IMG/VR virus record: IMGVR_UViG_3300047168_000258
Coordinates: 1-20,469 of that record
DNA length: 20,469 nucleotides
From: a virus
Reading direction: 5' to 3' (one strand)
Shown: positions 5,223 through 18,028 of the stretch, in pieces
Layout of the letters: every line of letters starts with the position of its first letter
How positions within the stretch are numbered: the first letter of the stretch is position 1
The notes under the pieces: generated by a model
Told to the model about the DNA's origin: nothing
Seen by the model: the letters and a program-made list of their open reading frames with translations, nothing else
Database searches by the model: none
Made by a program: the position numbers and the translations under genes

Positions 5223-7784
5223 TCAGGCGACGGCGACCCAGTTAGCCGCACCCGTGCTCGTCTGCTTCACCCAGAAGGTGCTGCCGACGCCGCCATTGAG
5301 ATTGCGAAAGGTCGAGCCCGCAGGCGCAGAGATCGCATTCAGCGGCGAGCCCCGGCCGATGAGTTCCACCGCACCCGTCGGCTCCGTATCCGAGAGCAGG
5401 CGCACCATGCCGCTGCCCGCCGGGTGCAACGAAAGATCGCCGGACTGCGTGCGAAGCGTGACACTGCCATCGCCATTCGGTGACACATAATCGCTCTGCG
5501 TGAAGCGCGCCGCGCGCCAGCCGCCGTTTGTGCTGATCCAGTCGATGCTCGAACCCGCCGGCAAAGTGATGGCAGCACCGGTCCAGTTGCTGAGCGCCGG
5601 CGTTCCCACTCTGTTGGCAAAAGCGGCGCTCGCCAGGCAATCCACGGTCAGCTCCCGGTTCAGCGGCAGCGGCAGGCCAACTTGCGCGCTGGCGCTCGCC
5701 CCCGCGCCATTGCCGCTGATGATGACGCTGGTGCCGCTGCCGTAGCCGGTGCCGTTATTGATCATCTGAATGCCGATGAGCTGGCCGTTGGAGAGCACGG
5801 CATTCGCCGCCGCACCGCTGCCGGTGCCCGAGAAACTCACGCTGGCCGACGTATAGCCAAACCCCGGGCTGGTAACCTTCACGAAGGTGATCTGCCCCAG
5901 CGTCGCAAAAGCCTGCGCGGTCATGATCGTGGCGATCGGGGCGGTGGATTGCGTGACCGTGACCGCATCGGCGATATCCGGCACGATCAGCGTATAAACG
6001 CCGTTCACCATCGCCGGATTCACCGCCCAGCGCGGCGTGAAATTCAGCAGATTGCCGCGTATTGTAATGCTATCCGTATAAGCGGAAATCGCATTCGTGA
6101 GGCTCGCCCCGGCATCGGCGACGATGATGTTATCCGCGACGAGAATATTCTGCGCCCCGTCGCGAACGAGGATACCGTTCACATAGCCGCTGTAGTTGAT
6201 CCAGTTGCCGATGATCGAAAGACCGGTGCAGGCAATGCCGAAATTATCGCCCGAGCCATCGGCCTCGACATTCTGCACGGCGATCGACGTGCCTGTGCAA
6301 TCCTGAATGAAATTGCCGCGCGCCGTACAATATTGCCCGCCGCCGATATTCAGCCCGATCAGCGCGCCGTTGATATAATTACTGTCCACCTCGGTATAGA
6401 TCGCGCCGCCGCAATCGATCCCGAAGGCGGACGCGCCGCTGATCATGTTGCCGGTGATCTTGCAATAGCCGGTATCGCAGAGAATGCCCGCACCGCTCGC
6501 CGCGATGGAACTATTGTTGGTGCAGAGATTGCCCGAGACCAGAATATTGCGCCCGGAGATATAAATGCCGTAGCCGCGATTGGCGTAGCAATTATTGCCG
6601 ATGATCACCGCCCCCAGCACGTCCGGGTTGGTGTTGCCGTAGGTAAAGGGCTGCGTCTGCACATTGGTGGCGTTGAAATTGCCGACGATGATGCCGCAGC
6701 TATTGTTCCAGCAGGTGTTGCCCATCACGTGCAATTCGCGAATCTTCAGCGCGAAGGCGGGATCTTCCATGTCGATATGGATGCCGTCCTGCGTATTGTC
6801 ATGCACCCGGCAGTTGGTGATGCTGAGCGCATCGAGCGCCTGGGCGTAAAACCCATGGGTGGCGTTGGCCGTGAATTCGCAATGGTCGATGCTATGCTGC
6901 GTGACCGCCGGGTCGCTCGCCACATAGGTCAGCCCGGCGCCATTGCCCGGCCCCTTCGCGTTGCGGAACAGGCAGCGGGTGATGACGGATTTGGTGCAGG
7001 ATGCCTGAATTAATACACCGAATGTGTTGGTGGTGATGGATGCATTGGCATCGAAAATCACGCCATCCATGAACAGATTGGCCGCCGAGATGCTGAGCCA
7101 GGCGGCGGTGGCCGAGCTGCCGAGCCTGGATTGCGCGCAGCGTTTCAGAATGCTGAGGCCGGGCACGCCAAGCAGGGTGCAGATCGCGCCGGAAATATCG
7201 CACTCGCCCGCAATGGCGTAGGTTTTCGCGCCCAGCCGGACCGGCGCGCCGCTCGCCACCGCCGCCAGCAGGGCGGCGCTGTCATCCGTCACGCCATCCC
7301 CCACCGCGCCGAAATCCTCGATGGCAACCGCATTGCCCGCCAGTGCCGCCAGCGTGCGGGCCACGCTGCCGCCCTTGGCGGTGGCGGTGAGCGCGCCGCC
7401 CGGCAAGCCGGGCACGCCCGCCATCGCGCCCAGGAAATTCGCGTAGGAGACACCGGCATTCGCACCGCTTTGGCCGATCGGCACGATATCCCCGGCCCCC
7501 GGCGGCGTGCCGGTGGGCAGGCCCGGGATTTCAAACGGTGCGGCGGCGGCAGACAGCGTGTCGCCCGAGAGCGCGAGGTTGGTCCCGATATTGATCGGCA
7601 CGGCGGCAGCGGTGCCCGGCCCGATGCCGCCCAGCAGCGTGTTGGGCGGCGCGGTGAGCGCGCTCTGCACGCCGGCCAGCACCTGCGCGCGCGTTGCCGC
7701 CAGCGTCTGGCCATTCTGGAAGATCGGGATTTCGTCGGAATCCGACACGGAACTCGCGGGCGGCAATTGTCCGATGGTGGGCAT
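5223..7784 (-). CDS. Tailspike with pectate-lyase-like parallel beta-helix
   Basis: An 853-aa protein. Residues 1-125 hold two copies of the LP...D...Q.G module (4-38, 86-120) and a shared attachment-like stretch. FGAVGDGVTDD (158-168) is the classic entry motif of the phage pectate-lyase-3 type beta-helix. Residues about 170-580 show repeating short strands with recurrent GN/NN turns (for example VMGNTCWNN, VIIGNNCYAN, LVSGNLCTNN), the rung pattern of a right-handed parallel beta-helix. Residues 636-701 contain two GxGYxS repeats, and 702-853 form a beta-rich end. The likely role is binding and perhaps depolymerising a surface glycan; catalytic residues cannot be assigned. Many cysteines lie in the helix rungs, possibly stacked inside the helix. 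The start ATG follows the previous gene's TGAGG, whose GAGG may act as ribosome binding site. Confidence 0.85.
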   Translation of the reverse strand: MPTIGQLPPASSVSDSDEIPIFQNGQTLAATRAQVLAGVQSALTAPPNTLLGGIGPGTAAAVPINIGTNLALSGDTLSAAAAPFEIPGLPTGTPPGAGDIVPIGQSGANAGVSYANFLGAMAGVPGLPGGALTATAKGGSVARTLAALAGNAVAIEDFGAVGDGVTDDSAALLAAVASGAPVRLGAKTYAIAGECDISGAICTLLGVPGLSILKRCAQSRLGSSATAAWLSISAANLFMDGVIFDANASITTNTFGVLIQASCTKSVITRCLFRNAKGPGNGAGLTYVASDPAVTQHSIDHCEFTANATHGFYAQALDALSITNCRVHDNTQDGIHIDMEDPAFALKIRELHVMGNTCWNNSCGIIVGNFNATNVQTQPFTYGNTNPDVLGAVIIGNNCYANRGYGIYISGRNILVSGNLCTNNSSIAASGAGILCDTGYCKITGNMISGASAFGIDCGGAIYTEVDSNYINGALIGLNIGGGQYCTARGNFIQDCTGTSIAVQNVEADGSGDNFGIACTGLSIIGNWINYSGYVNGILVRDGAQNILVADNIIVADAGASLTNAISAYTDSITIRGNLLNFTPRWAVNPAMVNGVYTLIVPDIADAVTVTQSTAPIATIMTAQAFATLGQITFVKVTSPGFGYTSASVSFSGTGSGAAANAVLSNGQLIGIQMINNGTGYGSGTSVIISGNGAGASASAQVGLPLPLNRELTVDCLASAAFANRVGTPALSNWTGAAITLPAGSSIDWISTNGGWRAARFTQSDYVSPNGDGSVTLRTQSGDLSLHPAGSGMVRLLSDTEPTGAVELIGRGSPLNAISAPAGSTFRNLNGGVGSTFWVKQTSTGAANWVAVA
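5682..5879 (-). repeat. Two tandem GxGYxS beta repeats in the tailspike
   Basis: Residues 636-662 and 675-701 of the tailspike share G-x-G-Y-x-S-x-x-V-x-x-S-G-x-G-x-G-A-x-A-x-A (one copy has PGFGYTSASVSFSG, the other GTGYGSGTSVIISG). This type of repeat is familiar from other phage fibre proteins. Confidence 0.7.
7425..7775 (-). repeat. Two copies of the 'LP...D...Q.G' module (tailspike N-terminus)
   Basis: Residues 4-38 (IGQLP...SDEIPIFQNG...) and 86-120 (IPGLP...GDIVPIGQSG...VSYANFLGA) of the 853-aa tailspike, separated by about 47 residues that include the IGTNLALSGDTLSA stretch shared with the downstream fibre. Confidence 0.6.
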
Positions 7785-14811: not shown

Positions 14812-15540
14812 TCAAACGGGGATTTTAACACCGGCCCAGGCCGGGGTCAGCCGCGGATCGAACGCCGCACCGCCCGCCGGCGGCAAGCGCGCCTGGCGCG
14901 TGAAATAATCATCGAGCGCACTACGAATATCCGCAGGTTCGGTTACGGAATCGCGCCCTAGCCTCAACGGCGCAAATCGTGCCTCGGCTTCATCCACACC
15001 CGTAACGCGCGCAGCACGCCGAAAATCCCTTGGCCCGCGCGTCTTCACCTTCTGCCCATCCACCTCATGCGCCCGCTCCGCCATGCCGGAAAAACTCACA
15101 GCATTAGGCGCATAACTTCTGCGCGTCCCATTCACACGCGGTTGAACGCTCGGCGCACGCGCATCGACCACGGCGCGCCGTACGGCGGCCTGCCCAACAT
15201 TGCGGCCTGCAATCCTCTCCCGCGAACGGACCCATCCAAACCCTCCGCCAGCCCGGCGCGCTTTTTTTACAACATCACGCACTACCGGCGCGCTCGCCCG
15301 GCGCGTCACGGCGGCCGGCATCTTCGAAGAGCGCCACGATGCCTCCACCTTTCGCCCGCTCAAAAACACCGGCGCCGCCGACTTGATCATCAGCCCACCC
15401 ACACCCGTCACCGCCTTGCGCGCCACCCGCCGTGCCGCACCCCGAAATCGCATCACCCTCGGCGCAAATTCGCGTTTTTGCAGCCGTCCACGAATCACGG
15501 TTCGTTCAACATTCGCCTGAAATTTCTGAACGCGCCCCAT
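14812..15540 (-). CDS. Short arginine-rich protein at the tape-measure position
   Basis: A 242-aa protein that is strongly basic, with many R/K residues (for example RFRGAARRVARKAV and ASWRSSKMPAAVTRR), few acidic residues in the first two thirds and no clear coiled coil. It follows the two-form tail-assembly chaperone and precedes gpU and gpX, exactly where P2, Mu and lambda-like gene orders put the tape measure. The C-terminus is different in style: SALDDYFTRQARLPPAGG, FDPRLTPAWAG. A strong GGAGGT site (15548-15553) lies 7 bases before the ATG; a start at 15564, overlapping the chaperone stop as TGATG, would add 8 residues. It may be a very short tape measure, or a tail protein that replaces it. 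I do not recognise a family with certainty. Confidence 0.4.
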   Translation of the reverse strand: MGRVQKFQANVERTVIRGRLQKREFAPRVMRFRGAARRVARKAVTGVGGLMIKSAAPVFLSGRKVEASWRSSKMPAAVTRRASAPVVRDVVKKARRAGGGFGWVRSRERIAGRNVGQAAVRRAVVDARAPSVQPRVNGTRRSYAPNAVSFSGMAERAHEVDGQKVKTRGPRDFRRAARVTGVDEAEARFAPLRLGRDSVTEPADIRSALDDYFTRQARLPPAGGAAFDPRLTPAWAGVKIPV

Positions 15541-15547
15541 TCCAGCT

Positions 15548-15553
15548 ACCTCC
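15548..15553 (-). promoter_or_regulatory. Ribosome binding site deciding the start at 15540
   Basis: GGAGGT on the minus strand, 7 bases before the ATG at 15540. It favours this start over the ATG at 15564, although that one is coupled to the chaperone stop codon. Confidence 0.6.
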
Positions 15554-15563
15554 GCACGCGCCA

Positions 15564-16033
15564 TCAATCCGCCTGCCAGCGCAGCCGCTGCCAATCAAAC
15601 CGCAGCCCCTCAAATCCGCCGAAAATCACCAGATACGCCAGACGCTCCGGCGCCTCCAAAGCGAACGCAACGTCAAACGGCACCCCGCACCGAACCAGAT
15701 ACAGGCAATCGATCAGCCCGGGGTGCCGCGCAAGTTTCCCGCGGCATGCGCCATCTCGGCCTCGCTTGGCGCGGGTAGTGCTGCATCCACCGCCGCCAGC
15801 CCATCACGCCCCAGCCGCTCCAGCACCGCCTCCAGCGCCGCCTCGCTCGCCGGGAACGGCACCGGCACATCATCAATCATCGTGACAGATGCAGCAATAA
15901 ACGCCATCTCCATATATGCATCATTGGCCGATAATTCTCCGCCCAACGCTTTATACAGCCGCAACTGCTCCACCACGCCCACCCGCCGCAGCGCAATCTT
16001 CCGCCCGGCTTTATCGATCGTCATCTCGCTCAA
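15564..16033 (-). CDS. Tail assembly chaperone, long form made by -1 frameshift (gpGT-like)
   Basis: Predicted 156-aa protein. The first 106 residues are those of the short form; a -1 slip at CCCGGGC (15716-15722) then gives 50 more residues starting LIDCLYLVRCGVPFDVAFAL. The extension ends at 15564 and overlaps the ATG of a possible next start. Its frame is open to exactly that junction and its amino acids look structured (LVRCGVPFDVAF, then ERLAYLVIFGG and FDWQRLRW), which random shadow frames rarely show. In lambda, P2 and many other tailed phages the chaperone's long form binds the tape measure and tail tube. Slippage efficiency cannot be read; no strong downstream stem-loop is obvious. 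Confidence 0.7.
15713..16033 (-). CDS. Tail assembly chaperone, short form (gpG-like)
   Basis: A 106-aa protein, MSEMTIDKAGRKIALRRVGV onward, ending APSEAEMAHAAGNLRGTPG. The length, its place between tail tube and tape-measure slot, and the overlapping extension in the -1 frame identify it as the gpG-type chaperone. The N-terminal half is a small alpha/beta unit (LRRVGVVEQLRLYKALGG), and the C-terminal half is acidic and helical. The start ATG overlaps the end of the tail tube gene by 4 bases. The stop TGA follows the slippery site without a gap. Confidence 0.8.
   Translation of the reverse strand: MSEMTIDKAGRKIALRRVGVVEQLRLYKALGGELSANDAYMEMAFIAASVTMIDDVPVPFPASEAALEAVLERLGRDGLAAVDAALPAPSEAEMAHAAGNLRGTPG
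15716..15722 (-). other. Putative -1 frameshift slippery heptamer C CCG GGC
   Basis: On the minus strand the bases read CCCGGGC in the zero frame C-CCG-GGC, which fits the X XXY YYZ pattern with X=C, Y=G, Z=C. The TGA stop of the short chaperone follows directly (15713-15715). After slipping back one base the ribosome would read CTG and continue for 50 codons. Confidence 0.65.
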
Positions 16034-16461
16034 GACACGCTCGTGCGGCTGGAGGCGTAAAACTCCAGCTGCTGCGTCACCGGCGCATCGCCCCTGTACG
16101 CACCGGCGGACGTCAGCTTAAACACCACGCCGCTGAATTGATAGGTCGAGGTCGAGCCATCCGGCTCGCTGACATATTGGTAGAGCGTACCTGCATTCAC
16201 GCTCTGCCCCGCCAGATACGCCGCCTCGATCTGCGCGATGAAATCATCCACCGCCGAGGACCCGCGATCGAGCGAAAAAACCCCTGCCCAACCCTTCGGC
16301 AATTCCGCGCCAAGCTGCACGCCATCCAGCCGGTCCACCCGCACCGCAATCGTCAATTGCTTCGCCTCAAACCCGGTCACATGCGCCAGATCGACCCGCC
16401 CGAACGGTCCCATCACCACAAACTGGCAGTCGCTGCCAACGGAAAACATATTATACGGCAT
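16030..16461 (-). CDS. Tail tube protein
   Basis: A 143-aa protein immediately after the sheath gene, the usual tube position. MFSVGSDCQFVVMGPFGRVD (5-24), HVTGFEAKQLTIAVRVDRLD and PKGWAGVFSLDRG are typical of myovirus tube subunits of the gpFII/gp41-like group, with a two-sheet beta barrel and a helix (AVDDFIAQIEAAYLAG). The end (VTQQLEFYASSRTSVS) overlaps the chaperone start. No other ORF of the right size lies between sheath and chaperone, so the assignment is firm. Confidence 0.85.
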   Translation of the reverse strand: MPYNMFSVGSDCQFVVMGPFGRVDLAHVTGFEAKQLTIAVRVDRLDGVQLGAELPKGWAGVFSLDRGSSAVDDFIAQIEAAYLAGQSVNAGTLYQYVSEPDGSTSTYQFSGVVFKLTSAGAYRGDAPVTQQLEFYASSRTSVS

Positions 16462-16474
16462 GTTGTTCCCCTCT

Positions 16475-18028
16475 TTAACCGTTCGCCGGAATCGTCTGCA
16501 CGCTCACCTGCACCGTCTGCCCGCCCTGCACATTCACGATGAATTTCTCGTTGATCGCCTGGTACTGCACCTGCACATCCGCCTGCACATAGCCCAGCGC
16601 CGTGCGGCTCGCCGGGTTGTTGCTCGCATCGCACACCACCGCAAAAGGCAGCGCGCTTGTGGTGCTCCCCAGCATGCCTTGCGAAAGCAACCCGTTCAGA
16701 AAAGCCAGCAGCGTGGCGCGGATATTTTGAAACAGCGTGGCATTCACCAACTGCCCCACATAAGCGCCCATGCCGCTCGCCAGCGTGCTCGCGATATAAT
16801 TTGTCAGGCGCGTATAATTATCGCCATTAATCGCGGCATTGGAGGACGCATTATGCCCGCCGCGCACGCCCCAATAGGCCCCGCCCGGCTGCGGATTGGC
16901 GATCACGTCAATCCCTGCACTCAACAGGGCCGAGAGATCCGCACTCGCATAGGTCGTCGCCGTCCCCACGCCCGGCTGGCCGGATTTCTGCGTGCCGATC
17001 ACCCCATAGAGCGGCTTGTTCAAGGAGGATTGCTCGGGCGAGAGATTGGCGAGCCGCCCCGCCACAAACCCTTGCGGCGAGACCAGCCGCACCAGCCCAT
17101 TTGCCTGGTCGGACCAATAGACCCAATCGCCGAACATCAGCTTGGCAGCATAACTATCAATGCCGGCCTCGGCTTTTACCGTCACGGCATTGACGATATT
17201 ATCCCCCGCCGGCCCGGTTAAAATCATATACACGCTCTCGGAGAGGCCAAATTCCGTCTGCACGCTCCATTGCGTCGGGTCATCCGCATCGGCCAGCAGC
17301 GCAATCGCGCAGCCCTGCGCACGCAGCGCATACATGCCAAGCCGCGGCAACGTATCGCTGCCCACCAGCATCGCGGCCGTCACACCCGCCGCGCCATCCT
17401 GCCCCGGCGTACCGGCGCTGAACGGATACACCCCGGCCACCGGTGCGGCCACGCCCGCCAGGTTGGTTGCCACCACCAGCTGCGAAGCACCGCGCAAAAC
17501 GCCGTTCCCATCATTCACCGCATTCGCCACATTGGCCCAGAAGCTCGGCCCCGTACCGGTGATATTATCAAACACCTCCGGATTCATCCCCGGCAGTGCC
17601 ACGGTCAGCCGCCAGCTGCTCGCCGCCGACCCAGGCGACAAAGTCACGCTCAACTGCGTGCCGAACGTGCCGGTATAAAGGGCGGTGAAGGTAATCGCGC
17701 CCAGCAGCGTGAGCGATGCCGCGGTGTCGGTGCCATCGCTCACCCGCACGCAGATGAAATTGCCCGCCCCCTGCTGCACGGCGGTCGCCACCTGCGTGCC
17801 CATGTCATGTTTGCGCGGCATCACCGCGCCGAACCGGTTGGCATAATCGCCCATCGTGCCGATCACCGTCGGCTCGCCCACCGGCCCCCAGCTCGCGGTG
17901 CCCACAACGCCCAGCACATCCGTCGGCACGCCGTTCAGCAGCAAGGTCTGCGGCGGGACGATCTGAACATATAAATCCGGCACAATCAGCGCCGTGGTGT
18001 TGATCGCCCCTTGTTGAACAATCGGCAT
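16475..18028 (-). CDS. Tail sheath protein
   Basis: A 517-aa contractile tail sheath subunit. The N-terminal VLGVVGTASWGPVGEPTVIG (38-57) and the downstream MGTQVATAVQQGAGNFICVR stretch are the sheath signature. The middle (about 105-350) is the variable surface domain with Rossmann-like GSDTLPRLGMYALRAQGCAI. The C-terminal part, YTRLTNYIASTLASGMGAYV, ATLFQNIRATLLAFLNGLLS, then QAINEKFIVNVQGGQTVQVS, is the conserved arm that exchanges strands between subunits. Length is as expected. AAGGAGG lies 8 bases before the ATG. Confidence 0.95.
   Translation of the reverse strand: MPIVQQGAINTTALIVPDLYVQIVPPQTLLLNGVPTDVLGVVGTASWGPVGEPTVIGTMGDYANRFGAVMPRKHDMGTQVATAVQQGAGNFICVRVSDGTDTAASLTLLGAITFTALYTGTFGTQLSVTLSPGSAASSWRLTVALPGMNPEVFDNITGTGPSFWANVANAVNDGNGVLRGASQLVVATNLAGVAAPVAGVYPFSAGTPGQDGAAGVTAAMLVGSDTLPRLGMYALRAQGCAIALLADADDPTQWSVQTEFGLSESVYMILTGPAGDNIVNAVTVKAEAGIDSYAAKLMFGDWVYWSDQANGLVRLVSPQGFVAGRLANLSPEQSSLNKPLYGVIGTQKSGQPGVGTATTYASADLSALLSAGIDVIANPQPGGAYWGVRGGHNASSNAAINGDNYTRLTNYIASTLASGMGAYVGQLVNATLFQNIRATLLAFLNGLLSQGMLGSTTSALPFAVVCDASNNPASRTALGYVQADVQVQYQAINEKFIVNVQGGQTVQVSVQTIPANG

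Follow-up and report, generated by a model that had tools for sequence, protein, structure and literature searches.

The window analysed here, 20,469 nucleotides of an IMG/VR virus record, carries on its minus strand a run of tail genes in the order sheath, tube, chaperone, followed by an ORF of 250 aa. These genes are located as follows.

16475..18028, minus strand: tail sheath gene (PHROG 23, E 1.4e-46)
16030..16461, minus strand: tail tube (major tail) protein gene, directly upstream of the chaperone, so named for its place after the sheath (PHROG 12993, unknown function)
15713..16033, minus strand: zero-frame tail assembly chaperone ORF, taken from the ORF list, with its stop TGA at 15715-15713
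14812..15564, minus strand: next ORF, 250 aa, in the tape-measure slot, its ATG overlapping the stop of the -1 frame (TGATG)

Relatives of the window phage reside as prophages in Acidocella, Acidiphilium and other Acetobacteraceae, and the order sheath-tube-chaperone is kept in them. The relatives of the tube protein are 45-91% identical to it, and the designation of 16030..16461 as the tube gene is an assignment by position. The terminase (PF03237) is encoded by all 12 relatives checked, which identifies them as phages or prophages and not as tail-only particles; a tailocin was ruled out on this ground. The 250-aa ORF has no match in Pfam or PHROG.

The chaperone relatives, 40-69% identical, occupy the same place in phages of Acetobacteraceae. 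The zero-frame protein, which is 106 aa long if started from the TTG at 16033 or 103 aa from the ATG at 16024, belongs to PHROG 20383; neither this family nor that of the tube protein has an assigned function in PHROGs. Neither frame convincingly matches a family in Pfam, and a tblastn search of annotated phages with the chaperone and with the -1 extension described below gave no matches. The predicted structure of the zero-frame protein (mean pLDDT 86) finds as its best PDB match the tail assembly chaperone of HK97, 2ob9, at a weak level (Foldseek E 0.33, prob 0.51). A second structural look, equally weak, returned YqbN 3klu (Z 5.2) and again HK97 2ob9 (Z 4.9), and many of the model's BFVD matches are tail assembly chaperones (E 0.03-0.27). 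Together with the position of the gene, these weak matches of a predicted fold support the name "chaperone", short of proof.

At its end, the zero frame reads ...GGC ACC CCG GGC TGA on the minus strand, with CCCGGGC at 15722-15716 and the TGA at 15715-15713, in agreement with the C CCG GGC TGA ending given in the initial annotation of this DNA. From 15803 onwards the -1 frame contains no stop until the one at 15566-15564. The 50 open codons past the zero-frame stop and the overlap of the -1 stop with the next ATG as TGATG (15566-15562), both noted in that annotation, were confirmed. Both frames are open from 15803 to 15713, so that a slip is possible anywhere in that stretch. The elements of the junction that bear on the position of such a slip are the following.

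15734..15740, minus strand: slippery heptamer G GGA AAC, the proposed -1 slip site, conserved in relatives as GGGAAAC/AAAAAAC
15731..15733, minus strand: TTG codon at the usual position of the zero-frame stop, where a stop (TGA/TAG/TAA) is found in 64/67 protein-found sites
15564..15740, minus strand: -1 frame extension, GKLARHPGLIDCLYLVRCGVPFDVAF...WQAD, with its stop at 15566-15564 and a dN/dS of 0.23
15719..15727, minus strand: 5' arm GGCACCCCG of a putative stimulatory stem, overlapping the CCCGGGC at 15722-15716
15679..15687, minus strand: 3' arm CGGGGTGCC of the same putative stem, with near-frozen wobble bases

The G GGA AAC heptamer sits in the zero frame of the chaperone, 18 nt upstream of CCCGGGC, and is the sole copy of GGGAAAC in the window, both strands counted. 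Its first base, 15740, is the end coordinate that the initial annotation gave to the region, although the heptamer itself was overlooked.

The conservation of this junction was examined in 71 loci obtained by two IMG/VR scans, with the chaperone and the tube protein as queries, and in 24 further loci from one GTDB genome scan with the tube protein (Acidocella, Acidiphilium, other Acetobacteraceae and Neokomagataea). Wherever a locus extends across the junction, it contains a homologue of the window's -1 ORF, placed in the same frame relative to the zero frame. The comparison set comprised the 67 distinct protein-found relatives that could be aligned over the site, including the window and leaving out one divergent locus; the sampling consists mostly of metagenomic records, and all these counts are of distinct sequences, not of independent events. 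The heptamer is GGGAAAC in 63 of these sites and AAAAAAC in the other 4, and wider pattern scans gave 169 and 25, respectively, among 194 distinct sites. In the Komagataeibacter phage phiKX1 and the Neokomagataea prophages, the zero-frame residues change from GN to KN and the X XXA AAC pattern is kept. The retention of this pattern in the AAAAAAC group despite the altered residues suggests that selection acts on slipperiness and not on the peptide.

The zero-frame stop abuts the heptamer in 64 of the 67 sites, lies one codon later in one and six codons later in two, the window and the locus L068. In the 194 pattern-scan sites the stop is flush in 141 and six codons on in 50, the share of the latter class being inflated because one of the scans asked for TTG. 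Members of the six-codon class, to which the window belongs, end at a TGA or TAA nested within the Leu-Ile/Thr-Asp codons of the -1 frame. Since the abutting stop reads TTG in the window, its zero frame is six codons longer and ends beside CCCGGGC by accident. A single TAG to TTG change would explain this arrangement; in the -1 frame it leaves Leu unaltered (CTA to CTT). A sequencing error at the TTG was ruled out, as the variant is common to dozens of other phages. The two arrangements, with the stop flush with the slip site or six codons later, offer a natural comparison for the effect of an abutting stop on frameshifting. The divergent locus mentioned above, L070 (3794 onwards), retains GGGAAAC without an adjacent stop and without the conserved stem; its -1 frame is longer by about 15 codons, and another strong hairpin starts 4 nt past its heptamer.

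The protein-like character that had been attributed to the -1 frame is borne out by the comparison. Its pairwise dN/dS is 0.23 (the two alternative frames of this DNA give 1.25 and 2.27), and no stop occurs in its 45 codons across the 43 relatives compared. Judged by these substitution patterns, the -1 ORF is under purifying selection, and its openness is far beyond chance. Conservation begins directly after the heptamer (LxRHPxLxDCLYLVxxGVP), and the stretch between the slip site and the stem is conserved as well. The model of the -1 extension has a mean pLDDT of 89; searches of Pfam, PHROG and PDB sequences with the extension, as well as a fold search, returned nothing of note.

The 9-bp stem formed by GGCACCCCG and CGGGGTGCC is separated from the heptamer by a spacer of 6 nt. 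Stimulators of -1 frameshifting are usually stems placed at such a distance from the slip site, and a downstream structure is a common, though not a universal, element of tail chaperone frameshifts of the lambda G/GT kind. Across 44 aligned sequences, standard pairs fill 97.2% of the stem pair cells; shifting the partner by 1-3 columns lowers this figure to 38-59%. At least 8 of the 9 pairs are present in 67/67 sequences, against 23.5% under a null in which synonymous codons are drawn from the remainder of the -1 ORF; the genome loci among these 67 were collected with a pattern covering part of the 5' arm, a pattern matched by all 23 genome loci that extend across the junction. In the aligned sequences the wobble bases of the heptamer and of the stem arms are frozen. 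In the 3' arm, nearly frozen at the wobble positions of the -1 codons, Gly is GGG in 40/44 and Val is GTG in 44/44; further along the -1 ORF, all or most codons of these two amino acids are in use. The only compensatory pair type in the stem, C-G to G-C, belongs to a single clade. In the loci of this clade (L008, L011, L013 and L014), the exchange goes together with the replacement of Pro by Ala in the -1 protein (HP to HA) and of the Gly codon GGG by GGC. No recurring 6-nt complementarity between the stem loop and the downstream sequence, as would form a pseudoknot, was found, nor any conserved Shine-Dalgarno-like stimulator upstream of the slip site. The stem probably brings about a pause of the ribosome and promotes the slip.

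A conserved -1 ORF could also be expressed as a separate protein from a start codon of its own, by translational coupling or reinitiation, for instance at the GTG in the 3' arm. Such a GTG does stand at -1 codon 19 in 44/44 sequences, and the record of phiKX1 lists the -1 ORF as a CDS of its own (5791-5970 of L073). However, this GTG is accounted for by the stem, and no start codon closer to the zero-frame stop is conserved in the aligned relatives. The -1 codons 7-17, which lie upstream of this sole conserved GTG, have a pN/pS of 0.35 versus 1.14 and 1.76 in the other frames, their residues being retained while the wobble bases vary freely. Selection at the protein level before the GTG argues against separate initiation, which moreover has no need of an invariant X XXA AAC. 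This explanation is considered very unlikely.

A slip at CCCGGGC itself, next to the zero-frame stop, was the proposal of the initial annotation, in which a CCC/GGG pair abutting the stop was described as an unusual site. Read in the zero frame, the motif conforms to X XXY YYZ, and it lies within the stretch where both frames are open. Any heptamer of this form at the same position is nevertheless found in only 2/51 relatives whose zero frame crosses it (the window and L104, in the wider scans), unlike the upstream GGGAAAC/AAAAAAC, which is invariant among relatives. CCCGGGC occurs in 7/49 protein-found junction sequences, including the window, and in all of them but the window its position is past the zero-frame stop, where it cannot act as a zero-frame slip site. 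Its bases are accounted for by the 5' arm of the stem and by the conserved -1 frame codons for His-Pro-(Gly), and entry at this point would skip the conserved -1 residues (LxRHP) that come right after GGGAAAC. The rarity of the heptamer and its location past the stop in the other protein-found carriers lead to the conclusion that CCCGGGC is not the slip site, a role that it is exceedingly unlikely to play; its apparent pairing with the stop is an accident produced by the loss of the usual stop and by the 5' arm of the hairpin. A slip at CCCGGGC would predict the tryptic junction peptide GTPGLIDCLYLVR, distinct from the peptides of a slip at GGGAAAC. This case illustrates that the conserved residues of the -1 frame need to be checked before the heptamer nearest to the stop is named as the slip site.

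The production of the second frame by RNA polymerase slippage (transcriptional realignment) has a negligible likelihood since, although the AAAAAAC of some relatives contains a run of six A, the longest run in the GGGAAAC of the window and most relatives is three.

The preferred reading, to which a probability of about 0.92 is given on the basis of comparative sequence analysis, is a -1 programmed ribosomal frameshift of the lambda G/GT type at G GGA AAC in the tail chaperone gene. Most ribosomes would read the chaperone to the zero-frame stop and release a product of 103-106 aa. Some of them, with tRNA-Gly on GGA and tRNA-Asn on AAC, would slip one base back on G GGA AAC, the stem downstream probably pausing them and favoring this event, and would continue in the -1 frame as ...AAGN-LARHPGLIDCLY... 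to yield a fusion of about 153-156 aa. The tryptic peptides predicted from this slip are ...AEMAHAAGNLAR and, in the -1 frame, HPGLIDCLYLVR. The conservation of both frames, of the heptamer and of the stem suggests that the slip occurs in the cell, and by analogy with lambda the two products would chaperone tail assembly. The frameshift in the tail chaperone proposed at the outset is thus retained, and its site is displaced: the comparison of homologues then advocated finds both frames conserved, and the conserved heptamer is GGGAAAC/AAAAAAC and not CCCGGGC. The lack of a conserved heptamer in homologues had been named in advance as grounds for refutation; on that ground CCCGGGC is refuted as the slip site, and the frameshift as such is not. 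A spurious slippery motif is removed in this way, and a signal conserved in a group of Acetobacteraceae phages is put in its place. A synthetic A_AAA_AAG site is far shiftier than A_AAA_AAC in E. coli (PMC5009743), which makes it uncertain how efficiently an AAC site would work in the real host. The two products predicted here, a short protein and its -1 extended fusion, parallel those of lambda, and many tailed phages make such a pair.

The slip site of lambda is GGGAAAG. The programmed -1 frameshift of its G/GT genes (Levin 1993; Xu, Hendrix and Duda 2004, 2013) has been reviewed (PMC5009743), and the present system resembles it in that the chaperone gene follows the major tail gene and precedes the tape-measure slot, and in having an X XXY YYZ slip site. 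It differs by its GGGAAAC/AAAAAAC heptamers, usually flush with the stop, and by a contractile tail, as indicated by the sheath gene; no sequence relation of the window proteins to lambda G or T was found in the libraries searched. Closer precedents exist for the heptamers. In Burkholderia phage KL1, a GGGAAAC immediately before a TGA, with a possible stem-loop downstream, was predicted for gp18/gp19 (PMC3483164). This layout, the sole basis of the comparison, matches that of most relatives described here; KL1 is however a siphovirus, and in the available part of that report the prediction comes from one genome, without comparative support. The pre-tape-measure chaperones of Caulobacter phages make use of GGGAAAC in Colossus and of AAAAAAC in phiCbK and its relatives (PMC3556154). 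These are the same two heptamers, the only feature on which the likeness is drawn, in phages of another alphaproteobacterium, but Colossus and phiCbK are large siphoviruses. The haloarchaeal virus HCTV-1 has G_GGA_AAC (PMC5009743). In view of these precedents, the type of frameshift is already known. The papers found contain no description of this chaperone family, of its conserved stem or of the two stop arrangements.

Among named phages, the Komagataeibacter phages phiKX1 and phiKX2 (LC644975, LC644976) encode a tube protein 36% identical to that of the window. A direct check of phiKX1 revealed AAAAAAC-TGA and the same stem, together with a homologue of the -1 ORF; this phage differs by a downstream ORF of 742 aa, the size of a tape measure. 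The separate hypothetical CDS annotated at 5791-5970 in its record (LC644975) corresponds to the -1 extension of the preceding gene.

The slot that follows the -1 ORF is variable. It measures at most 93 nt before the next tail gene (gpU-like) in 20/129 relatives and 0.6-2.8 kb in the others; L006, L045, L049 and L062 are examples of this variability, and no obvious tape-measure ORF was seen elsewhere in the full 24.6 kb record of L006. That contractile-tailed phages without a gene in the tape-measure slot retain the frameshifted chaperone pair, in the service of an unrecognised length determinant or of some other assembly step, is an improbable if conceivable reading. The 250-aa protein of the window and a 254-aa protein of L034, both Arg-rich, have little in common by eye, and share the C-terminal motif LPPAGGAAFDPRLTPxWAGVKxP.
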